A DNA stretch of 64,000 bases from Labyrinthula sp. Ha (lineage: Eukaryota > Sar > Bigyra > Labyrinthulida > Labyrinthulaceae): positions 1 to 64,000 of the forward strand of contig JAALGZ010000031.1 of NCBI GenBank assembly GCA_015227615.1. The letters are read 5' to 3'. Position numbers and translations under genes: made by a program. This document shows positions 3,115-57,178 of this stretch, piece by piece. Position 1 is the first letter of the stretch. Each line of letters begins with the position of its first letter. The notes under the pieces were generated by a model. That model worked only from the letters and a program-made list of their open reading frames with translations, was not told the origin of the DNA and made no database searches.

Positions 3115-5659
3115 TCATCCTAAATATTTTCTTCTTAAGTAAAACCTTTCTTCCACTTCTTGTTCACTCACATTGTGTTGTTCAACCAATTGCTGAATAA
3201 AATTTAAAAGGAAACCATCTCTTTCTGTTCCAATAAATCTAAAACTAAGTTCGTTTTCTTTAATCACAAATATATCAAGTATTTCATCAGGACCAAAAAT
3301 TATTCTAGAAAAGAACTTGAACAAAAATGAATTTTGAAGCTTTTTGTGGTTGAAGAAAATAAAAACAATTTGCAGAAACTTTTCTCTTGTAATTGGATTA
3401 TCTGTTTTCCACACTAAATCAGGAGTCAAAGATATTTTTAATTTCGAATCTTTCACTTCAGGAAGTAACACAGGAACAATAAAACTGTTTTTTTCTCTTG
3501 GATCCACAAATAGAATTAAACTATGTAAAGCTAAGTTTAAAACATATTCTCTTTCTTTTTTTGTATATTGTTGTAATAAAACTTCAAATAGATCTTTTCT
3601 TATTATTCCAGTATCAATATATTTTCTATAGTTTGAAAATACATTTTTATTTGTTCTAAAAGCAAGTTGATGAAAACTTTCATCACGAATGAAACTTCCC
3701 AAAGCTTGAGCTAAGAAAGAAGGTGCAAAAAATATAAAATTCTCACTTGCAGATAAGTTTAAACCAGGAAAATAAGAAATAATTCCTTCTTTAGAATAAA
3801 TTTCTAACATTTCTTCCATTTGTTCTTTAGAAAAGTTACATTTCTTGGCTTTTAGTTTAAACTTTTCAACTGTCATATAACTTGATTCTTCTCGACAATT
3901 ATCAAAAAATAATGCATAAACAGATTTAATTGAAATACCTCTATTTATTGAGTATTTTAATTTGCTTTTGATGGCCTTCTCACGACTCTTATCAAAATCA
4001 ACAGCATTTTCAACAGGAAAGAAAATAGTTTCTTTATCTTCAACAAGATTTAACTTCCCAGAAAGCTTAGACAGAAAGGATTTAATTGTATTGTTTATAT
4101 TCCCAAGTGTTTTGTTTTTCTTTAAAAAAGTTTTTAAATAAGTTCCAATAAATAAAACAGGTGCTTTTGGAGTATTTCTTAAAATACTTTCACACCAAAA
4201 TTTTAGTCTAAATAAATCTTTTTTATTTAACTTTGTCATATTAAAAACAACTAAATAAATAGCTTTTTTATTCATAAAAATATGATGAACTGAAGAAAAA
4301 ACTTCTTGTCCACCAAAATCATAAACATGAAAAAAAGTATCACTAGTTGTGAAATCTGAAAAATAAGAATCTGTTGTATATTGTTCAACAAAAGTTTTTT
4401 CTGTTATAGTTCTTGTAATTAACTCACCTTGAAATTCCAAGTTATATTTTGACTCTTTTTGAACTTCATCTTCAATAATATATTTACAAGATATCATGTT
4501 CCTAACTCTTTGAACGCTGAGATCATATTTTGTAAGTGGTTTAAACTTATTGTGGTTAACTTGAAATATATGATAATCTTCCAAAACTAAAGTAGATTGT
4601 ATTTCTTTTTGAAAACTTTTTCCAGATAAATTTCTTAATAAAGAAGTTTTTCCAGTTCTTCCATCACCTAAGAATAAAACTAAAGGAAATAAAATACCTA
4701 TAAGAATAACTGAAACTTCTTTTAACTCTTCATACTCTTCATATTGTTTTTGTAATGAAGAATGAACAAGTGGTTTCAACATTTCACTTTTTCCTTTAGG
4801 TTCAATAAAACTTTTAAAAACTTGCACACCAAGAACAGAAGGATGCGAATCAACTATTTCTTGTAGCTCAATAATATCTTCTTCTGGAAGATTTTCAGAT
4901 AAATACCTATCACCATATATTAAACTCTTTGTTGTTTTATCAGTTTTCAAGAAGTTTTTAATAGCTGAAATAATAACTTTGTTTTGAACCTTTTCATGAA
5001 TACTAAAAACTCAATATTTTGGTAAGAAATACTATATTCTTAAAATAGTTTTATTAAAAGATAAGCTTTTAAATATATCTGATATAGCTCGTGCCCAGGA
5101 TTTTGTATTCTTTAGTCTAAATAACAATATAAAATATTCTTACTTTATCTCTTTTACACTGATTGATATTAAGAAACTGCAAAAAAAGAACTCTGTAGAA
5201 AGATAACAATTATCAAACCTAAGTTAAACACATACGAAAAATATACTCCAATTTATTCAGTTTCAAGATTTTAAGTTGTTGACAGTTTTGAAAATTTTCA
5301 TCACTGAATCTACAAGAGTAAAATCTAAAGTGATGAAAACAATAACAAAATACTTGAGTTCTTTCACAGCTGCAAAACAAAGAATATAATTTGTAAAAAA
5401 AGATTCGACAGCATCAAAGGCACAATATCGAAACCTAACATTAAGATAATAGAACAGAGTATACTCTATAAAAGACACGTCTTGATCTGGTTGGAACCCT
5501 TCGACAAACTCTTTTATCTCTGTTTTAAACTTGTTTGGGTTTAAACTAGTTTCAAAAAAATCTGGTTTCCTTAGATTTATTAACATACTTAAGATACCGT
5601 TCAATCTGAAACGTTTTTTTATTACTTCTTTTTTCAAATTCTTTTTTGATTGAGCTCAT
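3115..5659 (-). CDS. Roco-family GTPase (LRR-ROC-COR), eight exons with 27-30-nt introns
   Basis: The proposed CDS starts at the ATG at 5659-5657 and removes introns 5570-5597, 5435-5464, 5325-5353, 5219-5246, 5117-5143, 5003-5032 and 4668-4697. That leaves 2,343 nt, or 780 residues. The first ~230 residues form leucine-rich repeats (VSFIEF, VKELKF, LKILKL, VKEIKL, ILRIYI). The ROC GTPase follows, with P-loop GDGRTGKTS near residue 264 and the switch motif DFGGQE near 380. The C-terminal ~300 residues are COR-like (IISYFPG, IFFAPSFLAQAL). Roco proteins are dimeric signalling GTPases; no kinase domain is present. The G4 position reads IGTYLK, without the usual Asp. Without splicing, the ROC-COR frame (3115-4950) has no ATG at its 5' end and the LRRs are scattered over three frames. 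One more possible intron (5520-5546, 27 nt) is in frame and undecided. Confidence 0.8.
4668..4697 (-). other. 30-nt intron splitting the P-loop Gly (phase 1)
   Basis: Starts GTATTTTATT and ends TTATTCTTAG on the minus strand. Removing it joins the beta-strand SVILIG directly to DGRTGKTS, a normal G1 motif. It is in frame without a stop, so retention would only insert ten hydrophobic residues. A shorter 18-nt GT-AG choice inside it is also possible. Confidence 0.65.
5003..5032 (-). other. 30-nt intron in LRR region (phase 2)
   Basis: Starts GTATTTCTTACC and ends GAGTTTTTAG. It contains an in-frame TGA if retained. Removal joins ILRIY to IHEK and restores the 28-residue spacing of the repeats. 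Confidence 0.8.
5117..5143 (-). other. 27-nt intron in LRR region (phase 2)
   Basis: Starts GTAAGAATAT and ends GTTATTTAG. Retention gives an in-frame TAG. Removal gives VKEIKLKNTKSW, placing V, I and L exactly 28 residues before I, I, I of the next repeat. Confidence 0.8.
5219..5246 (-). other. 28-nt intron in LRR region (phase 2)
   Basis: Starts GTATATTTTT and ends TTTAACTTAG. The length is not a multiple of three, and removal is needed to join LKLNKLE to FDNCYLS in frame. Confidence 0.8.
5325..5353 (-). other. 29-nt intron in LRR region (phase 2)
   Basis: Starts GTATTTTGTT and ends TCACTTTAG. Removal joins VKELK to FYSCRFSDENFQ and moves the frame so that LKILKLNK is read; without it the frame hits a stop at 5263. 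Confidence 0.8.
5435..5464 (-). other. 30-nt intron in LRR region (phase 2)
   Basis: Starts GTATACTCTG and ends TTAATGTTAG. It is in frame without a stop, but removal gives VSFIEFRYCAFD, which aligns position by position with VKELKFYSCRFSD and LKILKLNKLEFDN. Confidence 0.7.
5570..5597 (-). other. 28-nt first intron of Roco gene (phase 2)
   Basis: Starts GTATCTTAAG and ends AAATCTAAG. It links the only plausible ATG-initiated first exon (MSSIKKEFEKRSNKK...) to the frame beginning RKPDFFET. The acceptor AAG is less pyrimidine-rich than the others. Confidence 0.65.
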
Positions 5660-6622: not shown

Positions 6623-9600
6623 TCACGTCCAAGGCCAAGTCTGCGTTCCTGTTGAAGTCCAAGTTCCTGTCCAATTGCTCTTCTGGTTCCCGGTTTCTTG
6701 CGCAGTTTGAAGGTTGGTTCTCATTTTCAGGGTGGTAGGAAAAGTGGGATGGTGTGGGCTCTCAGACGGCACTGGAACTTTTCCTAGTAGTGCAAGTGCT
6801 TCATCGTAGTATATAGGTTTTACTGTTGGTGGTGGGGATGGGCTTCGAAGTTGGTAATCTCGCAACGCTGCTAGTTCCTTATCTACAATACCTCTTGCTG
6901 TGCATCTATGGTTCTCCTGACGTTTTGTCACTATGCTGGCAAGATCCAAGTCACCCTCTTCCAGTTGAAAGCTATAGCCATCTATTTTGTCAATGACTTT
7001 TTTCAGCCTTCTTGATATTGTTGTTAAGGTTTTTGTTATCTTTACATTGGACGACCAATTTTCTACGTTGTATATGGTTGGGACTATTAGTAGTGCTCTT
7101 GTCAGGTTAATTCTGCTCTTCTTTTGGATGTTTGAGGAAGAAAATTTGTCTCTGAATCTGTTGATGTGGTTGTGAGCTTCATTTAGTTTCTTGGTGATAG
7201 CATCAGTATTAATACCTTGTGGATCAAAGATAGCTCCAAGATATTTGTACTTTGTCACGGCTTCAATTGTTTCTGCTGCTACTTCAACGTTGCTTGTTTT
7301 GGGTTGGATTTTGTCGTGTATGATCGTTCTACTGTCAGTAACCGCTAAAGTCCCAGCTCTGCTTCTGTTGCGTGTTCCATCACAAAACCTCGAGCTTTTG
7401 TGACACCTTAGTGACGTTTCTGAGTGAAAGTATCTATCGCAACGTTCGCAGTGAAAGTTGGTCAATATTCAATTTATGTCTACGTCTGGTATGTTATCAG
7501 CCAAACTGTATCCTTCGCTTGTGAGCATAACTTTTGTTTTGTTAATATTAGTTTTTAGGCCTGTGAGTTGTTGAAGGTTCTGCAGTTGCGTTACAAAGCT
7601 GATTATTTCTTCATAGTTCCTTGTTACTATTACCAAGTCATCTGCAAAAGCAAAGTATCTGAAGGTTTGGTTGTGTAAGCTGGTGCCTTGTAAGGTATTA
7701 TTTTTTATTCTCTTCATTATAGAGTCAAGACAGAGGATAAAGATGCTTGGGGATAAACTATCTCCTTGAAGCACACCTCTTTTTATATTTACTAAACTAC
7801 TTTTTTCTCCGCTGTCTGAAACGAAAACTTTGGTCTTGTCGTAAAGGATGGTGATAAGTTTGATGAGCTTTTTTGGTACGTGATGCTCTTCTAGTGCTAG
7901 TTTCATGAATTTATGCGAAATACTATCAAAAGCTTTTGCAAAGTCTATGAAAAGAATTCGAAGATATATTTTCTGCTTCAGAGTTTCCTTTATGATTGTA
8001 TCAAGTGCTTCAATTTTCTGTATCGTTGAGCGGCTGTTTCTGAATCCTGCTTGATAATCTGGAAGTTTATTCAGTATTGGTGCTATTCTATTGTTGATGA
8101 TTTTTGTGAGAAGTTTAAAGTGAGAGTTCAATAGTGAGATTGGTCTATAGTTCGATGGGTCATTTTTACTTCCCTTCTGTTTGTATAGATACACTACTTT
8201 GCCTCTGCAGATTTTTCTCATCTTTTTAGACTTGAACGCATCTAGCCTGAAGAAAGATTGAATTTCTCTAACAGCATGTTTTTGAACTATTTCAACATGC
8301 TTCAGGAGTTCGTTTCTTTTATTGTTTGGTCCTGGAGCTTTATTATTTTTTAGGGTTTTGATGCATTCTTTGATTTCATCTACTTTTGGAGGATGAATGT
8401 TTATGCTGTTCGAAGGAGCCGGTGCAAGAATTGGAGTTTGGTAATGTCGTATTTGGTTTTCCGTCAATAAGCTCATTGGAAGTGGTAGGTTTTGTTGCTT
8501 CTCTAAATATTATTATAGTATCTGGATACGACCTGCGGTTCCTACCAACTTTCCAGTTGTATTCTTGGTTATTTTACCGAGCTGTTTACGGACTGGTTTT
8601 ACCTTCTTCATCAGTTGATACCCAGTTCTCGTATTGTTGTTTTGGAACGCAGTTTCTATTTCAGACGCTATTCTCTCCAACCAGTTGCTGTAGTCTTCCT
8701 TAGCTGATCTTTTTACTTCGTTTGTAATTCTTTTCTTCTCCTCAGGATTCAGGTTGCTCCAGTTGGCTCGTTTGTACCGCATCAAAGACATGGTTTGTTC
8801 CGAGTTCTGGTGTTCTGGGAGGCTGTACTTAACTTTGGGAAGATGTTTTTTCATGATGTTTGGAATTGAGTGGGTTAGGGTGATTTAAGTATCGGTGAGA
8901 GTCTCATTGAGATCCAGAGCTTCTTTCCCTTCTCTGTTTACCTTCTCCTGAATGGATGTGTTAGTTCCTAGCACGCTGTAGTCTAATTGGGTTCAAGTTC
9001 GCTTACCTGCTGTGCGATCCTGGCGTATGTTTATTCGAACACTGGTAGCAAGATGGTCAAAGTTTCTCTCCATCCACAAGTTGTATGATATTTTTGGTGA
9101 CATCTTCAAGTGGGATATTGTAGGTATATGATTCGTAATTACATAGTCAATTTCAGATGGCCCCCCACTATTTGACCTTGGCATAAATGTAGCATGTTTC
9201 CTAGAGCCTTTCTTGCCTGTAACAGCTAAATGGTTGCAGATTGTTAGTTCCTTTACTTTCAAAAACTCCACTAACAGTTTACCATTAGTATTTGTACGAT
9301 GAGAGAGCCCTAGTTTACCTTCTACATTTAACTCTTTCCTTGAGACTTGAGCATTGAAATCACAACAAATGAGAACCAACCTTCTCTTGTTAACTCCATT
9401 CAGCTTCGACTTGAGCTCCTTCAGGTACATCTTGTACGTTTCTTGACCGTGACCGCAGTGTGGCGCGTAAGTGTTAACCAAAACGAGACTTCTTTTTCCA
9501 CCTAGTTTGACAACCAGCTTCAGGATCCTGTCGCTTCTTCCGTCTGTGTCCGTTACTTGACTAGCAAGCTCGTTACACAGGAAAGTCGCTACGCCCGCCG

Positions 9601-9784
9601 CTTTTTCAGGCAGTTTTGAGCAAAACCACCTTCCTGAAGCCGAGCTAACGTTCACCATTCGCTGTAGGCGTTGCATTCCTTGCTTGTGCAGTTCCTGTAA
9701 CATTAAAATTTCAGTTTTTTTAGTAAGTTGTTGTACGTAGCTGCACTTAAAGGCAGTTAGACCACCAACATTCACCCTCACCAA
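6623..9784 (-). mobile_element. LINE (non-LTR) retrotransposon with APE endonuclease and RT
   Basis: Order on the minus strand: AP-type endonuclease (8993-9784), linker (8513-8854 and flanks), reverse transcriptase (7469-8476), then a C-terminal region with a C2H2-like finger (6623-7465). No LTRs are present. These are the hallmarks of APE-type LINEs; the clade is not assigned. True 5' and 3' ends could not be fixed; they may extend to about 9930 and 6150. Confidence 0.85.
6623..9784 (-). pseudogene. LINE ORF2-like polyprotein, one frame with in-frame stops
   Basis: All blocks lie in the same frame (1,054 codons). Endonuclease signs are LQELHKQG, VNTYAPH, ICCDFNAQ, GPSEIDYVI and the terminal NFDHLAT, matching the N, E, D/N and H-containing motifs of APE enzymes. 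RT signs are YRPISLLN, FIDFAKAFDSI, GVLQGDSLSPSIF and the catalytic FAFADDLVI. The thumb-like part shows YKYLGAIFDPQG, and the finger reads CERCDRYFHSETSLRCH. Internal stops are TGA at 8993, TAA near 8883, tandem TAA-TAA at 8510-8515 and TGA at 7469. After each stop, the sequence continues coherently in the same frame. No frameshift is needed anywhere, which is odd for a dead copy. Activity is not expected without readthrough. Confidence 0.8.
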
Positions 9785-11556
9785 CTTGAGAAAGTGCTCC
9801 AGTCGGCTTGCTGCTCCCGGGACTTCTTTCGAAAGAGTAGTTAGGTCTCTACTCTGAAAACATTGTATTTTTGCTTCGTCCTTGAGATTGTTTTCACAAG
9901 CCCAAAATTTATCGTTTTTCTTTTTTGTTTTCTTTTTGTACTTTTATGACATAAATTAATTGCCCAAAATATCTTTTTGTAAGAATAATCATAAAAACCA
10001 ATTTTTGAACCAATCAAATATTAATATTGGATTTCTTATCGTTCTTAACGTTAACTACCGGAATATAATATATAAATTTTGCTTAACGGTAATGAATCCT
10101 TATCGTATTGTAAATTTTTTGGAAATTAATGTTAAATACGATAAGCACAATAACTTTTGGTGTTTCCAAAATCTTTTAACAATTTAATAGTTTTCCCGAA
10201 TAATATTTCCATAATATATTATACCTATATCTTTCCTGTGAAGGGGTAAAAGTGAAGCAAAAGCTGACTTAGAAGTAAATGCAACAAAGAATTAACATCA
10301 TTTGCAAATTATTTTATATGAAAATCTTCTTTTGACTACAAGCCTTACCCTTACACTTATCTCAATCTAAGCTCAAAATAACTCCTAGAGAGTAGCAAAA
10401 TATTCCAATAGCTTTCTAAGAAATTTCAAAGGACTAATTCTACTCTCTAAGAGAAAATGTAACTGAGAAAATCGAGGTAATGCTTTGGCCATAGCAAGAA
10501 TTTTGAATAGTCTTCATATAGAAATGCTTGTATCTTGGCTCAAACTCTTTTTCAGAAAGTTTAACATGGAAAAGTATTAAATTGTACTTAAAAAAAATTA
10601 TTTGACACAAACTTAGTAAAATTGACTAGTATTCTTTACCTTAGCCCAATCTAAGTGTTTCTCTTCACAACCAAACACGTCTCCCAGACAGTTCAGCTAA
10701 TCAAAATCTCCAACAAGTAGAAGACAACTAGTCTTGAAACTTCAACGAGCAAATTATTCTTTGTTCTTTTTTAAAAGTTAGTTGTATTTATATTGTCACT
10801 ACTTTTCTTCTTCACACTAGGCGCTTTTTCTGGACTTATTTGGTTTTGGTTTGGGTTATAGCTAGGAAGAGAAAATTTCGAGTTTGCTGAATTTCAAAAA
10901 TATACCGGTACGTTCTGTTACCCATCGTGTTTATCGTGAATTCCGTTAACTCACGTTAATCCTGTTTAACAATATGTCGGCAATTTTCTTTAACGCCAAT
11001 AGCGTTAACCAGAATTATTAGGAAATTAACGTTAACTATCGTGAATAAATATACGATAAGAAATCTTACCAAGTAGGAAGAAAACGAGGAAATCCATAAC
11101 ATTTCTTATACTCTATATTAGAGATACAGCAGTATTAGTTCTTAGTTTGTGCCTTGGTAATTGGTACCAGAGATTAACGTGATCCCTGCAAAATACTAGG
11201 ATGTGCCATACTAACAATGATCATAATTCAGAAATAACTCTATTATATAACCATATTTGTGAGGTATAAAAATAACTATACAGATAACGAAAATGAGCAC
11301 TTCAAAGCTATTGGAAAAATGGTAATGGCCATGTTTACCTAGAGTCTCCCCAGTTTCAACCACCTTTATAGGTTATATTTCAAACGTGATCGGTTCAAAA
11401 AGTAATACTTTTTACATAAATGAAATAACACCCCTCTTTATGCTTATGCTGCTCTCCGTATTAAGTCCGCCGACCTTTTCTCGGTTATATACAGTGAAAT
11501 AAACTGCTGAAGTTGAGTGTGAAAATATTAACGCAACAGAGTGAAACGTATAAAAA
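9785..11556. other. intergenic, very AT-rich, nothing recognised
   Basis: Contains the LINE 5' flank and then AT-rich sequence with several imperfect short direct and inverted motifs around cgttaac/gttaacg at 10025-11060. No coding frame with recognisable content. Confidence 0.6.
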
Positions 11557-12851: not shown

Positions 12852-15321
<2,470 letters not shown>

Positions 15322-18921: not shown

Positions 18922-21657
18922 ATGAAAAATAATACTCTCACTCCTTTACAAAACTATCTCCAGCAACATGGAAATTTGGGATTCCAGAACAACTACAAGA
19001 ACGCTCCTTCTTCACCAACAGCCCACGATGATTTCCTCGAAACAGTTTCTGAATTTAAAAGAGAAATGAGTCAGGAGCGAATAGAGCATCGATCTCAAAT
19101 GGAGAGAGATGACGGGAAAACAATATTTGGGAAAACGGTGAGAAGAAGGAACATCTTCACAGAAAGTAGTGACCTGTTTGAGGCTCAAAAACATTGGACA
19201 GAAGTTACTCCTAAGAGCAATGGACTAAGAAATAAATTAGTAGATAATTTAAGCACATGTTTCTTGTTTGAAACTTTGAGTACACAAGATAAATATCACG
19301 TTGTGGATGTGATGAAGAAACGACTTGTTACTGCAGGTGAAGTTATCTTTCGGCAAGGTGATATGGGGGATTATTTCTATGTGGTAGAATCTGGAAACCT
19401 ATCAGCGTTAAAGTACACAGGAGAAATAAACGAACAAAAAACTTATGATGATATTAAACTTGAAGAGATGAAAGTAGTTAAGGACTATCAAAATGGAGGT
19501 TGGTTTGGAGAGAGAAGTTTATTATTTGAACAACAAAGAGCTGCAACTGTTATAGCAAATGCGGACTCTGTTTTATGGAAGCTCGATCGAGTAACATTCA
19601 AACATGCAGCAGCACAGGCAAGTCAATCTACCGTCGAAACAACTTTGAAAGCCTTAAAAGCAGTTCCTTTGCTTCAGGTTTTGACAGATGAACAATTGAG
19701 AGATATAGCTCAAGTAACAAGAATATGTGAGTTTTCAGCAGGAACTAAAATTATTCAAAAAGGAGATGTTGGAACAACTTTTTATGTTATTAAGTCTGGA
19801 AAAGTGAATGTAATTAATGGAAAATATGGATCTCCCTCTAAAGATGGTGAAGTGAATACTGTATTGGGCCCAGATAATTTCTTTGGTGAGGTTGCTTTGA
19901 TGTATGATGCACCAAGAGCAGCGGATATTGTGGCTGCTACCGATGTAGAACTCATTGGACTTGAAAAGCATGCTTTTATTAGTATTTTGGGACCTATTCA
20001 AGAAGTTATTGATGATAATGTGAAAGCATTTGCAGTTCAAGGTTTGAATATTTTGAAAGATTTAACACCTGAACAGAAAATTGATGCGTTTAAATTGTTT
20101 AGCAGAGAAAGATTTCGAGCTGGAGAATATATTATAAGACAAGGTGAAGAAGCAACAAAGTTTTATGTTTTGAGAGAAGGGGAAGTTGAAGTCTTGAAAG
20201 CTATGACGATTCAAGTGAATAATCAGCACACAAGAACTCATGAAATTGATGAAAGGGTTGAGCAGATAAAAACTTTAAAAGTTGGTGACTTTTTTGGAGA
20301 AATGGGATTGTTGAGTAATTGTAGACGTGTTGCAAATATTCGTTGTTTAGTTGACTGCGAATGTTTTGTTCTGACCAAAGAAGACTTTAATGCATTAGTT
20401 CAACAGGAAAGCGTAAGAGCAAAACTAGAAGATGGTGCTCTTGAGAGGGAAAGAGGAAGTGAAGAAATTAGAGCAAGGTTGCAAAAAAACCAAAGGGAGC
20501 TTGAAATAAAACAACTTCTTCAATCTATGAATGCAAATGTTAATTTAAGAGTAATGCAACCTGCGCATCAGGTGCCTAGAAATAATCTGCAGCCAAAGGG
20601 AATGTCTAGATTACCCACTAGTGCACAAGATTTTTTGATGAAGTACAGCAGTCCGAGTAGCTTTGACGAAGGTTATCGGATGGGAAGATTTACAAACTTC
20701 AATTTAGGAGAGTTTAATTCGATTTGTACTTTGGGTACTGGAACATTTGGTAGAGTGAAGATGATTATACACGAACAAACAAAACAAACTTTTGCGCTTA
20801 AAATTCAATCAAAGCATCAAGTTATGAAATATAATTTAAGAAAGAATATCTTTAACGAAAAAAATATGTTGATGCAAATTAATCATCCATTTATTTGCAA
20901 ATGTTACCAAACTTTTCAGGATAAAGACTACTTGTATTTATTGCTGGAACTTGTGCAGGGAGGTGAGTTATTTTCACTGCTTCAAAACCTTGGCCCTGGT
21001 TTACAAACGCATCATCATGTATTTTATGTTGCTTGTGTTGTTTCTGCTCTAGAAGTTCTTCATGTAAGGAACATAATTTATCGAGATTTGAAACCTGAAA
21101 ATTTGATGATTGACCCTAATGGATATTTAAAGCTTGTAGATTTTGGATTTGCAAAGGTTGTAGAGTATAGGACGTATACACTTTGCGGAACACCTGATTA
21201 CTTTAGCCCCGAGCTTGTTTTAGGATCAGGTTATGGTAAAGGCAACGATTTATGGGCATTGGGGATCCTTGCCTACGAGCTGATTGCTGGATTCACACCT
21301 TTTGGAAGCAACGAAGACCCCCAGAGTGAGGTCTATAAGAAAATAGTAAGAGAGGAAGTTCGTTTCCCAAAAGACTGTTATGATCAGGCAGGGATGAGTC
21401 TTATTTCTGGTCTCTTGCAGAAAAGAGTTGAGAATCGAGTTGGTTGTGGGCGTTCTGGAATAATGTCTGTTAAATATCACCCCTGGTTCCGTGATCTGAA
21501 TTGGGATGCGCTATTGCAGATGAAACTGAGAGCACCCTGGAGACCAAGGCTGAAGAATCAGATTGATGCAAGTAACTTTGATAGATACGACGAAAATTAT
21601 AGGATTATTCCTTTTAAATACGATCAACACACAAATGATCCGTTTAAAGGGTTCTAA
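18922..21657 (+). CDS. cyclic-nucleotide-dependent protein kinase (PKG/PKA-like AGC kinase)
   Basis: 911 residues in one exon. Three cyclic-nucleotide-binding domains come first, with phosphate-binding cassettes near residues 193 (FGERSLLFEQQRAAT), 319 (FGEVALMYDAPRAAD) and 455 (FGEMGLLSNCRRVAN). A helical linker leads to an AGC kinase domain (~597-860): GTGTFGRV, ALKIQ, YRDLKPEN, DFGFAK and the activation loop TLCGTPDYFSPE. The chain ends in FKGF, the FxxF hydrophobic motif of PKA-type kinases. Regulatory and catalytic parts in one chain is the PKG plan; metazoan PKG has two binding domains, while apicomplexan PKG has more. Site 2 is canonical, site 1 lacks the Pro before RAA, and site 3 has RVA. 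A Thr after RAA at site 1 slightly favours cGMP. It likely acts as a soluble, cNMP-activated Ser/Thr kinase. Catalytic Lys, Asp and DFG are all present. Confidence 0.9.
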   Translation: MKNNTLTPLQNYLQQHGNLGFQNNYKNAPSSPTAHDDFLETVSEFKREMSQERIEHRSQMERDDGKTIFGKTVRRRNIFTESSDLFEAQKHWTEVTPKSNGLRNKLVDNLSTCFLFETLSTQDKYHVVDVMKKRLVTAGEVIFRQGDMGDYFYVVESGNLSALKYTGEINEQKTYDDIKLEEMKVVKDYQNGGWFGERSLLFEQQRAATVIANADSVLWKLDRVTFKHAAAQASQSTVETTLKALKAVPLLQVLTDEQLRDIAQVTRICEFSAGTKIIQKGDVGTTFYVIKSGKVNVINGKYGSPSKDGEVNTVLGPDNFFGEVALMYDAPRAADIVAATDVELIGLEKHAFISILGPIQEVIDDNVKAFAVQGLNILKDLTPEQKIDAFKLFSRERFRAGEYIIRQGEEATKFYVLREGEVEVLKAMTIQVNNQHTRTHEIDERVEQIKTLKVGDFFGEMGLLSNCRRVANIRCLVDCECFVLTKEDFNALVQQESVRAKLEDGALERERGSEEIRARLQKNQRELEIKQLLQSMNANVNLRVMQPAHQVPRNNLQPKGMSRLPTSAQDFLMKYSSPSSFDEGYRMGRFTNFNLGEFNSICTLGTGTFGRVKMIIHEQTKQTFALKIQSKHQVMKYNLRKNIFNEKNMLMQINHPFICKCYQTFQDKDYLYLLLELVQGGELFSLLQNLGPGLQTHHHVFYVACVVSALEVLHVRNIIYRDLKPENLMIDPNGYLKLVDFGFAKVVEYRTYTLCGTPDYFSPELVLGSGYGKGNDLWALGILAYELIAGFTPFGSNEDPQSEVYKKIVREEVRFPKDCYDQAGMSLISGLLQKRVENRVGCGRSGIMSVKYHPWFRDLNWDALLQMKLRAPWRPRLKNQIDASNFDRYDENYRIIPFKYDQHTNDPFKGF

Positions 21658-23771: not shown

Positions 23772-26700
23772 CTATACGCTTATCAGGCTTTGTAGAAGAT
23801 TCTTATATACTTCGGGTGCGCAACACTTTGTTAGCATGTCTGAGATATTCTTTTCGCTTTGAATATATTTCACTTGGATGATTTTCCTTTGTAATAGTTC
23901 TTGGCAGTGCAGTAGGTGAACGTCTATATATTTTGTTTTCTGTATTGACCTTCTTCCTTTTAACATTTGGATAGCTGGTTGGTTATCTATTTCAACCAAG
24001 ATGGGAAGTTCAACTTAGACTTCATGGAATTCTAAATATTGTAACAGCATTCTTAGTTTCTTCATACACTGGCTTAAGGATACAAATTCAGCTTCTGCTG
24101 TTGAAAGCGTTATCATAGACTGTTTCTTTCATCTAAATAATAGTGGTCCATTATTGAAGAGAATGAGGTTACCTGATATGCTTCTGCGATTATCAAGTTC
24201 ACTTGTCCAGTCACTGTCTGTTTGTACTCTGAGTTGTATCTTATTACTCTTGCTTTTCTTGAACCTTATTCCATATTTGCTTGTATAACATAAATACTTG
24301 AGTGCTTCCTTTGCTACGGATAGCAGGACTGGATTTGCGAAGTTCACTCTTCTGGCAAGTAAGTTTGTAACATAATTTACATCAGGCCTTGTGTTCAGGG
24401 CAGCATGGCTTAAGGTTCCTACGGTGCTCTGGTATAAACGTTTGTCTTGAAAGGTATCTTTAGCTTCCCATACGTTCTTTGACTTGGACATCGGGTATTT
24501 AACTTGTTTCATTTCTGTGAGCCTGAATCTCTTCGCCGAAGCCTTGATATAGTTCTCTTGGGTCAATAATATGCTATCCTCATCTTCCTTTACCTGATAC
24601 CCTGCATATTTTGCTATTTCGTTTGCTGTTTTTATGTTAAATGATTGCCTTATATGTTTGATTAGATTATCTACTTCTTTTCTTTCGCCAGATATTATAA
24701 TGTCATCAACGTACAGAATTAGATATAGTTTTGGGCAATTGGATTGAGATTCGTGATTTTCAGATGATATTTTATTTTGGGCATTTTTCCCCCCGCATTT
24801 GTAAATGCAAGGATCTGTAACGAGTTGCACAAACCCATAATCCAAAAATAACGAAGAAATAAGAGAGTTCCAGAATTTAGGACTATCTCTTAATCCATAT
24901 ATACTGTGGCTTTCTTTCCAGACAAATGATGTATCAATCCTATCTTCATGACCTTTAGGGAGCTCTAGATATGTTGGCTCACTTCTCGATGCATATAAGA
25001 ACGCTGTTTTGACATCTAATTGTACCTTGACGAATTGAAGATATATTGTAAGCATTGTAACCAATAAAGTTTTTATGCTGTCTGAAGCTGCGACTGGAAC
25101 ATAGTTATCTGCGTTTGGATCTTCATGTTCTTTATCACCTCTTGCAACTATTCTCACTTTTGCTTTTGTTGTGTTGGAGATGTTGTCGTATTTACACTTG
25201 AAGAGTTCTCTGAGAGGTAGTATCTGGATGGACTTTTCTGCTGGCCTTTGAACTACTTGAAACTTCCCTGTTCTTTCAAGGCTATCTATTTTTGCTTGAT
25301 ATGCTTCCTTCTACTTTAATTTTTCTGGATGATTCATTGCTTGAAAATACCACTTTGGTTCATGATGAATAACTTGTTGAGCAGTCTTTGCAGTGTTGTT
25401 GCTTTTCTCAGGTACTATTTCTTGCTCATTAAACTTGGCAGTCCTAGTTTCACTTAGGACATTATCCTTCAGCCATCTGACAATAAGAGATGGTTTCTTT
25501 GTTATTCCAAGAAACTGACAGGGTTCAGCTTTGATATCTAACTTGGATCTTTTAGTAAGTGGCCGTTTGCCAAAACCTTTTGTTCTAAATATTCGGAACA
25601 TAGTTATGTCTGGTTTTAATCCGGTCAATGACTCATGAGGTGTTGTCATGTTGTTTGAGTCTAAAGGATGTTTTTTTGGATTGGAGTTGGGCTGTTTTAG
25701 GTGATATGTAAGTGCATAGTACCAGAAGTTATGTGTTAATTTTGCTGTGTAAAGCATAGCTCTTACGCCGTTGAAAACTATCTCATTTGTAGCTTCATCC
25801 AGACCGTTTTGTTGAGGTGTTCCAACATTACTTGTACGATGAGAAATACCATGTTTCTTGAAGTATTGCTTTAATGAGTTATTTGTAAACTCAGTTCCTT
25901 CGTCACTGTGGAAGATAGTGGCATTGAATTTCCATCTTTGTTGTATTTGCTTGAGTTTCAGTTCAAGCTTCTTTGGTATTTCACTTTTCTTCTTAACTAG
26001 AATAGCCCATCTAAATTTTGAATAGCTATCAGTCAAATTAACTGCATAGGTAAACTTGTGGATGGTCATAGGTTTAATTGGTCCAACTGTGTCTGCATGT
26101 ATTTTTTCTTCAGCAACTCTTGCTACAAATATGTTTCTAGATCTAGTAGGCATTGCAGAAGAATCCAACTTCTGAGAAATACATCCTTCGCAGAAGTGTT
26201 TGTCTCTGTGATTCCTTACCTCTAGTTCATTCTGTATTATATTCTGTCAGTTTTTTAATCTCTTATAGTTTAAGTGCCCAATTCTCATGTGTAACAGTTC
26301 TGAGTCAATAGCAACAGAAGCTATTGAGTTTGTATTATCTTTATGTCGTAATACATCGTTTTTATTCAGAATGTTTGCCCTAATATACCATAAGTTATCT
26401 TGTTTTGAACAACTGTAGTATGAGACTCCTTTGTATTGAATCTCGAGATATTTCTTACTAAATGCTAGGGTGAATCTCGATTCAGTTAGTCTCTTTCCCG
26501 AAACTATATTCGAGTTTGCATCAGGACAAACATAAACATTGTTTACTAGTAGTGTCTTTCCATTATCCAGACGTAGTAGTAAAGATCCATGACGTTTACT
26601 ATATACTCCTTCACCTGATTTTAGAGTACCGACTTTGATAATATGTGGTTTGAAATTGAGAATATCCTTATAACTTGATTCAATATGCAACGTCGCTCCA

Positions 26701-27578
26701 GTATCCAAAATGAAAGATTAAAAAGAATGATATTTTTCTTCATCTCGCGCAACGTTACAGATCGCGTCAGCTCCTTTTAGTCTTAACTCACTTTCTCTTT
26801 CTTTATTTTTAGAACTTGCTACGTTTGCGTTATTGCTATCAATTTCGTTCTTCCTCATATTCTTTAGCTTGATACATTTCTTCGTGGAATGCGATAACGT
26901 CTTGTGGTATTTACACCACTTCTTGGTCTTGCTGCTGATATTTCGTTGTTTGAATTTCTTCTTCTTACTGTTTCCTGATGAATACAACGTACTTGAAGTC
27001 AGTTTTATTGAACTTACTAAGTTGTTGAATTGGATTTTTCCAGAGGATTGTATGACCGCGTTAGATCTTATATTAGCTACCATGGTATTGTAGGAAGGAG
27101 GTAGTTTTCTTATGAGCAACTCAGACAGTTCATGGTCTTTTATCTCTCCGCCAAAGTTCAAACATTTTGAGTGAAGTTCCTTGAACTTGAGTATAGATGC
27201 TTCGACGTTGCTCGATAGTTTGAAGCTTTCCAGTTGAATCCTTGTTACCTGTAGGTCCACTGCTTTATCCCCTTCAAACTGCTGTTTCAGGTCTGTTATC
27301 ATATCATACGAAGTATTGAGATCTTTTACTAATGGAAAGTGTTAAGAAGAGATATGTTTCACGATGAAAAGCATTTGTTCTTCGTTTATCTTCTCTACTT
27401 GCTTCTTTTGAGCTTCAGTGAGTTCCTCTTGATCGATGGTTGTTTCTCCTAGTATTACTTCTTTATTCTTTTTACCTAGGCTCATAAGTGTGCGTTGAAC
27501 TAAATAGTCCCATCGAGGAAAGTCTTTCGGATCTTCGAGGAGGAACAGCTTGTTGGTGGGCTCAGTTTCAGAAGGCAT
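23772..27578 (-). pseudogene. copia gag-pol polyprotein, single frame with six in-frame stops
   Basis: Frame of 1,269 codons from the ATG at 27578. Gag (27578 to ~26720) ends in a knuckle-like WCKYHKTLSHSTKKC with His at the second position. Protease is LDTGATLHI (26708). GAG-pre-integrase is LLHMRIGHLNYKRLKN plus FCEGCISQK. Integrase (26168-25311) has VNLTDSYSKF, SDEGTEF and GTPQQNGLDEATNE, covering the D,D,E residues. Reverse transcriptase (~25310-24130) has VQLDVKTAFLY and the catalytic YVDDI. RNase H (24128-23772) has LSTAEAEF and IDNQPAI. Internal stops are TAA 27342, TAA 26718, TGA 26247, TAG 25311, TGA 24129 and TAA 24015; each is followed by coherent coding in the same frame. Two of them (25311, 24129) sit where copia proteins normally have Trp. 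Confidence 0.88.
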
Positions 27579-28111: not shown

Positions 28112-30491
28112 ATGACAACAACAGAAGAAATGAGTGATGACCTTAGTTGGGCTAACCAAATTAAAATAGATTGTCGGCAGCTTGAGACAAGGAAATCGCA
28201 TCGCACAAAAGCAGAAGTCTTTGAACGTTTAGGACGGCTGATTTCTGAAGCCAAACAAAATGATCTGCTTATTGCATCAGTAGCTGTCTTTGCAAATATT
28301 GTTGTCGAGGATGACGAAGAAGAATATCCAGCGTTGTTAAATGTTTTTAAATATGGGATTCTTGAAAGAGTAGTTTCCTTGGGAAACAAAATACTTGAAG
28401 AAAAAAATACAGAAGATACATTCCTCTTAAGAGTCGTTGCGACATCTTTGAGTAACTTTTCAATGCAGTTGAATATACGACCTGTTTTCGTGTTTGGGGG
28501 AAAAGATAAAGAAGATGAAAAAGATAGAGAAATTCGTGAACGAGCTGAAAATATTGTTCAAAACACGTCAAGAATAGAAAACTCTCCAATACCTTTTTCT
28601 TTAAAACTACTACTTGAAGATTCTATTCCATTTGAAATAAGAAAGATATCTATTCAGATTTTGATTAAACTCAGTGATTTTTCTGTGTTGAAACTTCAAA
28701 TTTTGAACAATGATTTGTTTCTAAAAGTTATTGAAAGAATGAGAACATTTTATGCGAGTGAAGATGTTGATGAACAACAAGGTTTATTAGAACTTTTTGC
28801 TGCTGTATTTTCAAACATAAAGAATATATCTGATGTAAATCAACTAGTTTTAGAAAAACTTACTCCTCTAAGAAGCAAAATTGTCAAATACTGCTTAAGT
28901 GATGAAGTTAGAAACTCTGTCAATGGGAATTTATCTTTGAAACTTTTAACTGTATCAAAACTATTTTTTGCTAGTTCAAATACTGAATTAAACCTTCTTT
29001 CATTTTTGAATAAGTTGGGGAAAATAATTAGTTTTCCCTTTGACTCGAATGAAAAATTGTTGCATTTGACAAAATGTTCTTTAAATGAAATACAAGTGTT
29101 GAAAAAAGATCTTTTGCCTATTCTTCAGTTATTGGAAAGTATGGTTGCAGATGGAACTGTGCAGACAAATGCTGTATCTAATGCAAAACTTTTGCTGAAG
29201 TGTGAAGTTGATCTTTGTTTGGGAAAAATATGTTGTGTTTGTTCCTTTGTTATTGAAAACGAGTTAAATGATGCTGTTCAAAGAAAAAAGACTAATGATA
29301 AAGCAGATATTAATAGAGAGAAAGTTATGGAATATGCATTTTTAAGAAAATATGCTCTCTCTATTCTTGCTCAACTTGCAAACTCAGAAGAAAATTGTAT
29401 TTCTTTGGTACAAAACTTACTAAAGCAGCCAGAATATCTGGGAATTTTTGAAGAAAACAGTTTGTTTGGGTCAGAGAATATGCTTCAAGTTTTGTGGCAT
29501 TTGGTTGATACTATGTCAAATTTTGATGTGGAAGGAACTCAATCAACACTTTCTTTATTCAAAAACCTTTTCTTTTGTGCAAGAGTTACAAATCAAGTTA
29601 TTCAAGGGTTAAGAAAGTATGAACCTATTGGAAACTTTATCCTTAAGAAAAAACTCTACGAGAATCAGGATGTTAATATTGCAACGTTTACTGTTGGGAT
29701 CTGTCGATTGGTTATTTCTCAACCTGATCTAATTGGAAAAGATGCAATTATTTCTTTTTTTGGAAAGAATTTTTTGAAGGAAGTTGTGAACGTTGCGTCG
29801 AGTGAGAGTATGAAAATGCATCCTGTGGTAAGAGCAGAGATGGGAAGATGCATAGCTTTACTTTTAAAGCAATCTGAATGCACTGGTATTTTTGTTTTAC
29901 TATTTACTTTTAGCTCTTCAAGAGGTGGTAGGAATTGACGATGAGAATGGGTTTGTCGTTTTAGTTTCAAAGTTTTTTACTTTTATTTTGCAATCAAGAT
30001 ATTCGGTTCTATTGAAAGAAGGATTAGAGGGTCTGCAAGTTGTTTTAAAAAAGGTTTCAAGTAATAGGAGAGAAGAAGTAAGAAAATGCTTAGCTTTTTT
30101 TCCAAAAGGAAATGAAGAAATTGAGATTGGTAAAGAAGGGAGAAAAAATAAAGACTTTTATAAAGATATTGAACAACTTATGACTGGTCTTGATAATTTA
30201 GACCTTACACTTACAGATGAAGATTTAGATATTTCAAAAGCTGAATCCAAAAACGGAACTAGGGAATCATCAAACAGCACCAACAAAGAAGTGATCTTAC
30301 AAGAAAAAGTAATTGAAGAAGAAGTCGATGAACCACAAAGTGATGAAGACTTATCTTCACTCACTCTGTTTGAACGTATTTTGCAGCTTAAATTTGGATT
30401 GGTACCTGTTAACGAAACAGAAGGTTCTGAAGCACCTGATTCTACAGAGATAGAAGATCTTGCTGCTCAAGTGTATGAATCATTAATTTAA
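28112..30491 (+). CDS. ARM-repeat protein resembling SmgGDS (RAP1GDS1), two exons
   Basis: Exon 1 is 28112-29885 and exon 2 is 29914-30491, giving 783 residues. The start is the first ATG of the frame (MTTTEEMSDDLSW). Most of the chain is helical with armadillo-like repeats (for example LFKNLFFCARVTNQVIQGL and ATFTVGICRLVISQ). Two short insertions are rich in Lys/Glu. The last ~100 residues are acidic (EEEVDEPQSDEDLSS). The order of repeats near the C-terminus resembles SmgGDS, a chaperone and exchange factor for small GTPases with polybasic tails, but that family is nearer 560-610 residues. Other ARM proteins are possible; the ARM fold is better supported than the exact family. It converges on ST1, with 208 bp between stop codons. 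Confidence 0.6.
29886..29913 (+). other. 28-nt intron in the ARM-repeat gene (phase 1)
   Basis: Begins GTATTTTTGTT and ends TTACTTTTAG. The length is not a multiple of three, so it is required to join the two long frames: ...KQSECT, Ala from a split codon, then LQEVVGIDDENG. It matches the Roco introns in size and ends. Confidence 0.88.
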
Positions 30492-30699: not shown

Positions 30700-31869
30700 T
30701 CAAACATAAACTGTTCCAGAATCTGCACATATACCTTTTAATTTATCTATAGTGTCCTGCAACTTTCTGTACAAACCCCTCTTATCCTTATGTGCGTATT
30801 TTTGTCTTAGTTTTTCTCTTTCTCCATTATCAACCGTGACTCTATAATTTTCCACTTTAAATTCTTCTTCATTATTTAAATTAAAAAACTCACCAAAACC
30901 CAAAGGCAAATTTGGTAAACTATCATAATCAAAACATTTAAAAAAAGCAGGATCTAAGCGAAGAAGCTGCTGCTCAATAATAAACTTTTCGTTTATATGT
31001 GCATACATCTTCGCAAGCTTGTTCCAACTTGCAAACCATCTTCTTACAGCAGTAGAGATTAAAATGTCCAACGCGTTTCTGTACATAAACATAACTCTAA
31101 AATCTAAGTTCAATGCTTCAAAGATATCAGCAAGAACTCTCACATCTGGAAAATCTGTTTTGTGACACTCGTTTGAAAAATGGCCATTTGGATAACTCAA
31201 CATTCCAACACGCATATCACACATAGTATTTATTATTATGGATCGGTGTTCAATATCCGAAGGCTCATAAGCAACTCCAAGAATAACTTTCATATAATCT
31301 ATCAAACTCTGTTTTCTTTTCTCTCCAACATTTTTGCTACCAAATAATCCGCTTCTCATCTTATTATGGGCAAGAGTAGATGCAAATCCGGTATTACGAG
31401 TAGGATTAGGCAAACATCGCGTATTGTTGGATGAATCGAACATTGGACCAAGAAAATGATGTCCATTCCCTTCTAAACCAACTGCAAAAACAAATTTTAT
31501 ATCAGAGCTGAAAGCTTTTTTCTCAAGCACGTGTGGAATCTGTTCAGTGTCATTTGCTTCTTTTGCAGCTAGGTGGGAGCACCCGGGTTTTTCAGCAGTG
31601 TTTCCCCATTGAGCTAATAGCTTATCAGCTATTGAGTCGAGGTCAAGTTTGTTTGATTCTGGGTAGAGCAAATAAGTGTCCAGTTGTAGATCCTCATTTA
31701 ATGTAGTAGCAGGACCTTCACTCGTCTTCTCAGGTGTTATGTTCAACATTAGTGGGTTGAAAGAATACGTGCTAACAAGATATAATAAAGTTGCACCAAG
31801 AGCTACTCTGCTAAAGAGACGTAGTTTTTTTTTCCAATAACTAAATTCATTTTCTGTTTTGATGTTCAT
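30700..31869 (-). CDS. ST1: type II membrane sulfotransferase-like protein
   Basis: 389 residues. A short basic N-terminus (WKKKLRLF) precedes one membrane segment (~21-37). A stem follows, then a lumenal-type domain. Two motifs suggest PAPS-dependent sulfotransferase folds: FVFAVGLEGNGHHFLGPMF at ~126-144, in the place of the 5'-phosphosulfate loop, and FMYRNALDILIS at 261-272, matching the R-N-x-x-D-x-x-x-S pattern of the 3'-phosphate site. Conserved Cys lie in GCSHL, CDM, ECHKTDF and KCFDYD. It is probably a Golgi enzyme that sulfates a glycan; the acceptor is unknown. The assignment rests on motifs, not on overall similarity. It is the first of six same-strand paralogs. Its 5' half is almost identical to ST2, while its last ~170 residues differ. 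Confidence 0.65.
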   Translation of the reverse strand: MNIKTENEFSYWKKKLRLFSRVALGATLLYLVSTYSFNPLMLNITPEKTSEGPATTLNEDLQLDTYLLYPESNKLDLDSIADKLLAQWGNTAEKPGCSHLAAKEANDTEQIPHVLEKKAFSSDIKFVFAVGLEGNGHHFLGPMFDSSNNTRCLPNPTRNTGFASTLAHNKMRSGLFGSKNVGEKRKQSLIDYMKVILGVAYEPSDIEHRSIIINTMCDMRVGMLSYPNGHFSNECHKTDFPDVRVLADIFEALNLDFRVMFMYRNALDILISTAVRRWFASWNKLAKMYAHINEKFIIEQQLLRLDPAFFKCFDYDSLPNLPLGFGEFFNLNNEEEFKVENYRVTVDNGEREKLRQKYAHKDKRGLYRKLQDTIDKLKGICADSGTVYV

Positions 31870-34800
31870 ATTTTATTACTTAACTACCCTTTACGAGTTT
31901 GTTTTAAACCCTTTTAATAATTTTTAAATTTTTATATTTCTGTTGCAGTATTCCCGGAAGTTTTGAATCTATATCTGTATAAATTACCAAAAAGTTTCTA
32001 AAAAAACCAGAATGAGTGTTTTTTTCAATCCAGTATCAGATTATTTACAATCCAGTACTAGATTATTTACTTATCTTGAGAGTTGAGACATGAATTTCTT
32101 AGAACAAAGTTTAACAATCCCGTAACATATTTATAAGAAAAAGTATAACCAATCTTCTCTATTCTAAAAAACGAGATCATAAATAAATTCTCATTTATAT
32201 ATCTCGATTTCTTGAAATCAATTCTACATATTCTTCTCCGCTTAATAAGAGTTAATCTAAAGATCATTAATATGTAGTATATTATTATAGATAATATATA
32301 TTTAGCCTTTACAACATGTTTACAACTGAAATAAGAAAGGACTGATATATAATATGGGATTAAACATGATTTCACATAAGCTACCAATGATAAAGATTGT
32401 CAATAATTCTCCAGAAGTTTTGAAATAACTTACTCTATGGTAATTAAGTTAGAAGATAAATACCGTACACTCAGGAGAAACATAGGTATTGCTGAGAATA
32501 ACATCATCTTCCAACAAATTAGTTTATAAACTGACCTCAGTTCTACATCTACTCATTGTTGTCTTCTTTCACAGAAAACAGTTGTGCAAAAGGTCATTCT
32601 GATGTACATGAAATAAAAGTTTAAAAGAGTATCCTTATTTGCTTTTAAATATCCTTTCCTCTTTCCTAACTTTCCCTTTTGTTCTTGAACTTTCATAAGA
32701 AGTTTAGTCGTTTTTTTAAATCATTATTAGTGTAGTCTATAGGTTAGCTCTAGTTGTTGCAACCATTATGGTCATGAATTCAAAGTTTGGGAGTCTATAC
32801 GACGTGGAATGAATCTAAATCAATGTACCATGTCTATTTGAAAAGATGTTTACTCTGCTATTCCGACAAAGTTGCACTTTGTCTCATTTGGTTTTTCGAG
32901 TAGTCTTGCATTCTGCTGTAAGTTTATTATAATCAACTGGTTCTTGATTGATTCTGTATAAGTTAACTTGGCCAAAGGGCTCAATCATCTATGAGCCTGC
33001 CATTTACTGCACGCGTTCAGAGCCTCGAGAGTCGAGACTGCAATGTGTCAATAATCATTGTTAAGACTGGTATCAATAGCATCCAGTTTTCACCAGGTGT
33101 TCGTAGATAGCTCTTGGGGCTAACCATGAAAGAAAACTGAATTGATTCGTCAGTTACTGGAAGGATCGAGATTGCGGGTAAGAAATCCGTTTCCCAAAAT
33201 TTTAAACAAAAGTCCAAATTGATTCTAAACAATTGAAATATTGGCCAAAGATATTGAAGAGAAACAATGTGCTCTTCAATACTATAATTATAAGTTTTTC
33301 TTGCAAGAAACTTAAAGCTATTCACAGGTAGATTAAATTTATTCTTGAATGCAACCATAGAAAAGATATTCTTAGCTTTCGCTTTATATACCTATAAGAC
33401 CATTCATTATTGACAATCAGTTTCCTTAACTTTACTGTTCCAAAAATTATCCCCTTACACTTTGAAAGTGCTCCGCATTTTTGCTCCTGCTTAATCGATC
33501 ACCGTTAAGTACCAAACACTCAATACTACATTACTATACTTCAATTATATCATTCGCTAGAATTCCTTTATCTAAAGATAGTATTTATTGAGGCCAGCCA
33601 TTGAGAGGCCACTCGAATTTCATTGGTTGAAATGATTCATTGGTTAGATTAATTATCCAAAAATGAAAATAAAAAGCCAATAAAACGAAAATTCAAACCA
33701 AGAAATCGCGAAACAAGATGTAAGTACAGAGCCACTTAATGAAACAAAAAAACATGATTAAAAGGGAAGCGAAGCTAATTTTTGACAATATTCAATAGGT
33801 TTCTAGACATTAAGAAAAAAAATTTATAACTGTTGTCACTTGAGTGAAGATGAGATTGTGTTTCACCTGAGAGTAGGGTTGAATAGAAAGACTGAAGAGC
33901 AATAGTTGGCGATATTCCCTATGGAGAGGCCAGAAGCAAAAATGGCCAGAAAACGCTCATAATATTTTATTTGAAAACCAAGAGAAAGAAAAAAGGCTAA
34001 ATGTGAAGTAGTTGTTTCGCTTCTTATTCTCATGATTGGTAACAAAATTCTGTGAGAGAAAGTATATAGAACGTGAAAGGAAGCTTTCGCTGCATGTTGA
34101 TTTAAGGGTTCCTGATGGACATGGGGATCAGGGTTAGGTCTTTGATGCTCCTGTTGAAGAAGAAAATAATGTAGTGGCATTTCTTATCCCTGGTGGACAT
34201 AGAGCTTACAGCATTTCTATTGTTTAGGGTCGCTTCAAGGCAAATTTCAGTACTTATTTTCAATCGATCTTATTCATTGAACATGTTTCACCTCAGGATA
34301 TAGAATATGTGCTCTTTTTTAATTCTAGCTTTTAAAAATCCTATGAGCGAAGTTGCATAAGGATGTTACTTGTAAAGATGTTTCCCTACGCCGATTTTAC
34401 CTCCTGATATAAAGTTTTTGTTTTCCTAATGTTTAGATTAAAAGTTCCCATGAGCGAAGGCACAGGTTATTTATTTGTGCAAGGGTTTGATTTTGTTTAT
34501 GATCAAAATGTTGTTTTTGAGGCGTTGTTATATAAGAAGAAGATACTTTTTATTTCTGGGAATTTTTATTCAAAAGATTCCCATTTCGTTGAGCTTGCTC
34601 CGTGCACTGAATGCTTTTGGAAAAGTTCACGGCGGTAATAGGTATGGGTGGATAACGACAAAAAGATGGTTGGTAAGTAGTTTCGAAAACATACTTACAT
34701 GGTAAAATTTACTCCATTCTGATGGCAAACCTCGTGATTTTTTCTTCTTGTTTTTCTCTTCTTCGAAGATAACGTTATCGTACCAGAATGCTGGAGGAAG

Positions 34801-56790: not shown

Positions 56791-57178
56791 TCTTCTCTGT
56801 CCAAAGTAAATGTTTCATACAAATATTTTGGGAAATTAGAGTTATATTACTACCGTAACCCTCGTCTATAAGCTAAGTTCCTATGATACTGGAATAAACA
56901 ATAAAAGGAACCTCTTCAAGAACAAAAACCTTAAAACATGTGTTTAGGCAATACTTATCAACAGTATTTTAGTATTTTGGTATTAAAATATATTTTATCT
57001 TAATTTACTCGAAGTATTCGGTTTCAAGGGTGAACAGAACTAGGAAGCCAAATTACGACTACAACACATTAACTAAGAGGAAACAATATAGTATTACACT
57101 AAAACAAAAACGACGATATTTCACAAAGTTCTAATACTTTGACAATGCGAGAAATGAGAAAAAGTAAATCAAGTATGA
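56791..57178. other. intergenic between ST5 and the small basic gene
   Basis: 388 bp of AT-rich sequence; it should contain the ST5 promoter. No motif recognised. Confidence 0.5.

Follow-up and report, generated by a model that had tools for sequence, protein, structure and literature searches.

Very short predicted introns and one repeat-like unit per exon in a Roco gene of Labyrinthula sp. Ha and its paralogs

Introduction

The layout of one leucine-rich repeat (LRR) per exon with phase-2 borders has already been published for brown algae and for Tetrahymena. In the brown-algal LRR-ROCO genes, according to the accessible part of Teng et al. 2024 (PMC11378527), where Zambounis et al. 2012 is cited, each LRR has its own exon with phase-2 borders and the variable sites lie on the concave face. 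The shuffled LRR exons are all 72 bp, the proteins have 4 to 49 LRRs, alternative splicing occurs and there are 9 to 47 genes per species (same part of PMC11378527). The Tetrahymena LRR genes, in the available portion of their account (PMC6564038), have tandem exons of exactly 90 bp with an extreme phase-2 bias, exon exchange and introns of at least about 50 bp, and Roco is not mentioned in that portion. Excerpts on ultra-short introns give 16–17 nt for mikrocytids and 18–21 nt for chlorarachniophyte nucleomorphs (PMC10245619), and about 25 nt for Paramecium and Nyctotherus (PMC5014332). Here we describe a Roco gene with seven predicted introns of 27–30 nt in the first 64,000 nt of contig JAALGZ010000031.1 (contig C79) of Labyrinthula sp. 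Ha. This whole stretch, called the window below, is the start of a contig in a 50.8-Mb eukaryotic genome of 153 contigs.

The window gene and its paralogs resemble the brown-algal genes in their LRR-ROC(-COR) order, one LRR-like unit per exon, phase 2, variable face and expanded family. They differ in having exons of mostly 75–105 nt (L024 and L027 have one 72-nt exon each), a constant repeat count in the 19 genes compared, at least 117 Roco-like frames in the genome and introns of mostly 27–31 nt. With the Tetrahymena genes they share a phase-2 exon per repeat, but exon sizes differ and the Tetrahymena introns are longer. Like the lineages with ultra-short introns, which also include Blastocystis (about 31 nt) and Stentor (15–16 nt), these genes have introns of a narrow length class; unlike in those lineages, the mode is 28–29 nt, at least one 61-nt intron occurs in the same genome and tiny introns are sparse outside the Roco family in the DNA sampled. 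A literature search, with most subscription journals outside its scope, returned no account of a Roco family in a tiny-intron setting. The gene had been proposed earlier from the letters of the window (the original prediction); that proposal did not extend to how large the family is, to the single LRR-like unit in each exon, to the hypervariable face or to the exon block in which near-identical copies differ, all of which are read here from sequence.

Results

Structure of the window gene

The features of the gene are as follows, each with its basis in brackets; filled sites refer to the 19 genes compared below.

3115..5659, minus strand: LRR-ROC-COR (Roco) gene, spliced product 780 aa (Pfam, fold, paralog intron matrix)
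5598..5659, minus strand: exon 1, 62 nt, ATG at 5659 (spliced frame; L018 exon equally long)
5570..5597, minus strand: intron 1, 28 nt, phase 2 (site filled in 18/19 genes, the L027 model excepted)
5465..5569, minus strand: exon 2, 105 nt, leads into the first LRR strand (frame, family pattern)
5435..5464, minus strand: intron 2, 30 nt, phase 2 (site filled in 19/19)
5354..5434, minus strand: exon 3, 81 nt, one LRR-like unit (frame, family pattern, position-wise variability)
5325..5353, minus strand: intron 3, 29 nt, phase 2 (site filled in 19/19)
5247..5324, minus strand: exon 4, 78 nt, one LRR-like unit (frame, family pattern, position-wise variability)
5219..5246, minus strand: intron 4, 28 nt, phase 2 (site filled in 18/19; in the 19th, L011, shifted by one alignment column)
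5144..5218, minus strand: exon 5, 75 nt, one LRR-like unit (frame, family pattern, position-wise variability)
5117..5143, minus strand: intron 5, 27 nt, phase 2 (site filled in 19/19)
5033..5116, minus strand: exon 6, 84 nt, one LRR-like unit (frame, family pattern)
5003..5032, minus strand: intron 6, 30 nt, phase 2 (site filled in 19/19)
4698..5002, minus strand: exon 7, 305 nt, final LRR-like unit plus the linker that runs to the P-loop (spliced frame)
4668..4697, minus strand: intron 7, 30 nt, phase 1, inside the glycine codon of the P-loop; no stop codon, length a multiple of three (in 4/19 genes)
3115..4667, minus strand: exon 8, ROC GTPase (GDGRTGKT, DFGGQE) and COR, stop TGA (Pfam, profile search, fold)

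Excision of the seven GT-AG stretches gave 2343 nt, a single frame of 780 residues plus stop from an ATG, just as originally predicted. Donors are GTAT in six of seven introns and GTAA in one, and acceptors are TAG in six and AAG in one, in line with the preference for GTAT and TAG noted originally. The unspliced minus-strand frame 5010–3115 is open by itself for 631 codons, and the small exons 1–6 encode about 162 of the 780 residues, or one fifth; the earlier statement that gene finders would miss the whole N-terminal half was therefore overstated. Gene finders with the usual intron limits would nonetheless lose most of the LRR part, hiding a possible large recognition family.

Intron sites shared among paralogs

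Twenty stretches were taken from the genome: 19 further Roco loci and one (L009) that is DNA of the window itself. Introns were placed by a gene-model script that started from nine introns and was afterwards retrained on its own finds, with GT-AG ends obligatory and splice-site weights trained on introns of these same loci. Two length ranges were used: a free one of 15–120 nt in the first run and the controls, and one of 22–40 nt for the models behind the intron matrix. This matrix covers 19 genes of the same genome, the window gene with its introns entered by hand and 18 paralogs modelled in the narrower range, aligned as spliced proteins; L013 was dropped (no LRR part was found in it) and L029–L031 stand outside the matrix. 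All comparisons in this study other than those with PDB and Pfam were made within this one genome.

The agreement with paralogs exceeds what chance would give. The nearest fetched paralog, L018, has exons equal in length to those of the window gene (62, 105, 81, 78, 75, 84 and 305 nt) and introns of 28, 29, 28, 28, 27, 30 and 30 nt. A common layout was found in 18 of the 19 other loci, with exons of about 74, 105, 81, 81 (or 78), 75 (or 78), 84 and 87–102 nt and introns in phase 2; the last of these introns is absent from L018 and the window gene, and intron 1 was missed in the L027 and L009 models. Across the matrix, sites 1–6 are filled in 18, 19, 19, 18, 19 and 19 of the 19 genes, always in phase 2, by introns of 24–32 nt, mostly 28–29 nt, except for one of 38 nt in the poorly modelled L027. 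An intron in the linker, at three nearby alignment columns, is present in 17 of the 19 genes and missing from L018 and the window gene; where it measures 35–37 nt, an alternative AG would give 29 nt in some genes.

The P-loop site holds an intron in four genes (window, 30 nt; L018, 30 nt; L026, 29 nt; L014, 27 nt) and is empty without an alignment gap in the other 15. The exact absence of the ten P-loop residues from those 15 genes speaks in favour of introns. This is the opposite of conservation of the removed residues among Roco homologs, which the original prediction had named as evidence that would count against introns. The seven stretches are almost certainly introns, and we infer that they are removed from the mRNA.

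The introns also share a form. Among 105 distinct introns of 23–33 nt, 52 are 29 nt long and 35 are 28 nt long. In these mutually related introns A occurs at -7, -8 and -9 in 42, 53 and 41 cases and T at -10 in 88, positions -8 to -10 lying outside the acceptor weights of the script; at least 14 of the 105 start with GTTT. GT-AG ends with a consensus are visible in the Roco introns, the script having demanded GT-AG and favoured trained ends. Applied without the narrow length range to the 18 paralogs, the script placed 103 of 120 introns at 27–31 nt. On the antisense strand it placed none, and with the LRR region shuffled and the rest real it placed 39 scattered ones (18 at 27–31 nt). Between the window gene and L018 the introns are as similar as the exons, and substitutions at the three codon positions number 71, 48 and 53 (seven exons up to the P-loop). 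Candidate phase-1 introns of "27 nt" and "30 nt" in the ROC-COR exon of several paralogs were rejected, since the L010 residues match the window protein ungapped, and script-called phase-1 introns of 23 and 35 nt were discarded.

Very short introns in other genes

Malate dehydrogenase (L003) has a 31-nt intron within GAAGGIGQPL, and the joined protein is ungapped there against PDB 2dfd. Introns measuring 27 and 33 nt interrupt the gene of a Rho-type GTPase (L007), with junctions ungapped against Cdc42; the script placed the second at 27 nt and it was moved by eye to 33 nt. PurL (L033) has a 30-nt intron whose junction is ungapped against PDB 9n9w. In all three genes GT-AG fits junctions that are fixed by known relatives. 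Two genes of the window add to these:

13081..13141, plus strand: 61-nt intron in the CDC48 gene 12852-15321 (a comparison: introns here are not all tiny)
29886..29913, plus strand: 28-nt intron in the unrelated long gene 28112-30491 (script and frame only)

The 61-nt CDC48 intron has ends of the same kind as the tiny introns. Because malate dehydrogenase, the Rho-type GTPase and PurL carry introns of 27–33 nt, tiny introns appear to be a habit of the organism. Many sampled non-Roco gene models have no tiny intron at all, and in 198,257 bases outside Roco genes the distances from GTA[TA] to TTTAG numbered 8 at 28 nt and 8 at 29 nt, against a baseline of 6.8 (standard deviation 2.8). Since this count shows no peak, tiny introns look sparse outside the Roco genes. 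As judged from these sequences, the capacity for tiny introns is general in the genome and their high density is peculiar to the Roco family within the DNA seen.

Identity of the protein

Pfam identified a Roc domain in the window protein (PF08477, 1.1e-18, 68.1 bits against a cut-off of 27) and in 19/19 members of alignment A1, which consists of the window protein and 18 loci that partly differ from those of the matrix. COR-A reached 5e-07 in the window protein with 30.2 bits, under the cut-off of 35.3, and was found in 7/19 A1 members. An A1 profile search of PDB retrieved LRRK2 and Chlorobium tepidum Roco. Fold prediction for window frame 4767-3118, taken unspliced, gave a mean predicted local distance difference test (pLDDT) score of 75.4, and with this model Foldseek matched LRRK1 (8.7e-19), C. 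tepidum RocCOR (3dpu, 1.3e-15), COR alone (3dpt, 7.5e-08) and LRRK2. By predicted fold, a COR domain directly follows ROC, and the window protein is a Roco protein on the basis of Roc by Pfam and COR by fold. The ROC-COR fold and order are those of LRRK1, LRRK2 and C. tepidum Roco (PDB 8e05, 8fo9, 3dpu, 6hlu), the known ones having an N-terminal LRR. The window protein differs in having no Pfam kinase match, and identity over the fold is about 15%.

Comparison with Roco families agreed with the ROC and COR parts of the original LRR-ROC-COR assignment; the LRR part is below Pfam detection, and its identity in the window protein is based on the family pattern. This is a repeat pattern, LxF..C, with a scaffold that is frozen in ten paralogs. 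Pfam found no LRR in L016 and sub-threshold ones in L018 and L026. A distant member, L031, has Pfam LRR_6 above the cut-off, and no intron was seen in its LRR part.

One repeat per exon and a variable face

Introns 2–6 cut every repeat at the same place, the codon that precedes the F position of LxF..C, where the residue is F, L or I. Each small exon thus holds one LRR-like unit with symmetric phase-2 borders inside the strand of the repeat. We estimated selection in ten of the 18 paralogs by simple counting over related copies, leaving out L017 (identical to L016 there), L027 (incomplete model) and the more distant L011, L014, L018, L019, L024 and L026. The ratio of nonsynonymous to synonymous differences (pN/pS) was 0.08 for the scaffold, 1.05 (interval 0.73–1.65) for adjoining exposed positions, 0.73 for other LRR positions and 0.42 for ROC. 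Exposed-site pN was 0.41, a value reached in 0/5000 random column draws.

Two loci, L020 and L021, hardly differ in sequence between about -100 and +3500 relative to the start. Of their 64 differing columns within the gene (gaps counted), 46 lie inside one 300-nt block, +450 to +750, which corresponds to exons 5 and 6 together with the introns of the same numbers. No near-identical source of this block was found among the 17 other models, the best reaching about 0.88 for L020 and 0.82 for L021. The unit shared by the two loci is about 3.6 kb and has sharp ends, with unrelated flanks on both sides. From these ends, single Roco genes seem to move as units.

Size and distribution of the family

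From the genome search, in which 150 of 511 candidates were scored, 122 rows were chosen by eye as Roco-like. Of these rows 117 contain an open frame of at least 300 aa, which is a lower bound for the genome; 22 other fetched loci were the ones inspected singly. Contig C2 has at least 20 of the listed frames, in about 0.9-446 kb, and 18 of the 20 are spaced 11.6-60.5 kb apart. An interval of 17,844 bases occurs twice and three others measure about 11.6-11.8 kb; this repetition hints at segmental duplication. Downstream of the L018 gene, at L018:6647-7081, lies a partial second copy of the Roco C-terminal part.

Discussion

We consider it likely that the window gene is one member of a large LRR-ROC-COR family in a genome whose spliceosome removes introns of about 27–31 nt. 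The transcripts would be spliced over very short units consisting of a GTAT donor, a T-rich middle, an A about 7–9 nt before the end, which is the probable branch point, and a TAG acceptor. The spliced protein is predicted to be a GTPase switch in which the LRR face would bind a variable partner and the ROC-COR module would switch, a model that follows brown-algal ROCO proposals and known NLR biology. The repertoire would be germline and made of many dispersed copies, diversified by point changes in the binding face and by paralogs swapping LRR exons with one another. Because their borders are symmetric phase 2, LRR exons could be exchanged without damage to the frame. The many copies and their variable face suggest that variable partners are recognised, and by sequence and analogy we read the family as diversifying recognition GTPases, a role for which we see an even chance. 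It is a more doubtful proposal that the genome holds a germline repertoire of well over 100 LRR-Roco receptors, with binding strands cut by 28–29-nt phase-2 introns and whole one-repeat exons exchangeable with little linked DNA. If true, this repertoire would be analogous to those of NLRs and to brown-algal ROCO, with introns much shorter than those of the Tetrahymena LRR genes.

Several observations weigh against parts of this interpretation. GT-AG was imposed by the script and is thus no evidence alone, and the matrix models were restricted to 22–40 nt. Without the paralogs, the script chose a later ATG on the window's own copy (L009) and skipped intron 1. The GTA[TA]...TTTAG distances lack a 28–29-nt peak outside the Roco genes, no Pfam LRR was called in the window protein, and the fold matches have template-modelling (TM) scores of 0.5-0.6 at about 15% identity. 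The 19 genes read do not differ in repeat number, whereas it varies in brown algae. With an interval of 0.73–1.65 around the exposed-site pN/pS of 1.05, positive selection is unproven, and the exposed ratio rises above 1 only against the pS of the whole LRR (1.89, 1.39–2.54). The exposed columns were settled after a first set, shifted by one, had given 0.70, and the corrected set uses four junctions of five. Finally, dN/dS is below 1 in every region (0.39-0.93, ten genes).

These last values bear on the best-surviving alternative, which we rate just short of an even chance. In Dictyostelium, Roco proteins are an expanded ordinary intracellular signalling family, and if the present family were of this kind, its variable LRR face would reflect relaxed constraint after duplication and not non-self recognition. 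Both dN/dS below 1 throughout and the fixed repeat number fit this explanation. However, constraint is unevenly relaxed, at 0.08 for the scaffold versus 1.05 for the exposed positions, and a recent duplicate pair (L020/L021) differs by an exon block.

An improbable alternative concerns only intron 7. Introns 1–6 would be real, and the 30-nt P-loop stretch would be kept, or sometimes kept, as coding sequence that adds ten hydrophobic residues. The stretch is stop-free and divisible by three in the window gene, L018 (30 nt) and L014 (27 nt), its retention leaves GDGRTGKT whole, and the fold prediction puts part of it, at low confidence, as a strand preceding the P-loop. By contrast, the L026 stretch at this site is 29 nt and the frame requires its removal, the stretch is absent ungapped from 15/19 genes, and its ends match the GT...TAG pattern of the other introns. 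From sequence, the P-loop intron is possibly one that is turning into coding sequence.

There is very little chance that the gene is decayed and reads through by accident with convenient GT-AG pairs. It is true that the substitutions separating the window gene from L018 do not concentrate at third codon positions, but exon lengths are equal, frames are intact, sites are common to 18 paralogs, scaffold residues are frozen in ten of them and the antisense strand yielded no introns. Least likely of all, and rejected, is that the stretches are DNA eliminated in a somatic nucleus like the internal eliminated sequences (IES) of ciliates: they are AT-rich and similar in size class to ciliate IES of 26-30 nt, but IES-like segments require TA at their ends, at least 14/105 distinct stretches start GTTT without TA, four bases too many would remain after excision between TA dinucleotides and disrupt the frame, long genes (CDC48, PurL) are readable with the standard code, and the 61-nt CDC48 intron has ends of the same kind as the stretches.

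If splicing is confirmed, this lineage would become one of the few that have a narrow class of ultra-short introns, and the P-loop and linker sites would provide presence/absence pairs for exact intron loss or gain. A further case of one LRR per phase-2 exon would also make it testable whether this layout recurs in the evolution of recognition proteins.

Other features of the window

Pieces of Copia-type retroelements are on the minus strand at 16-1924, just 3' of the Roco gene, and at 24129-27341, with gag and integrase identified by Pfam (477-1625 and 25311-26246) and neighbouring frames by eye. Just 5' of the gene, 6623-9943 (minus strand) is a probable non-long-terminal-repeat (non-LTR) element, with a reverse transcriptase at 7469-8509 (Pfam RVT_1, 1.8e-35) and an endonuclease-like frame, by eye, at 8993-9943. 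Six related long frames in tandem on the minus strand (30700-31872, 37830-39005, 44963-45736, 51906-53153, 55585-56814 and 58218-59450) are alike by eye, with VFAVGLEG.GHHF or close to it, and one is shorter; Pfam gave no match for the one submitted (55588-56814). At 18922-21657 a PKG-like protein kinase with three cyclic-nucleotide-binding stretches is encoded in one open frame in which no intron was called.

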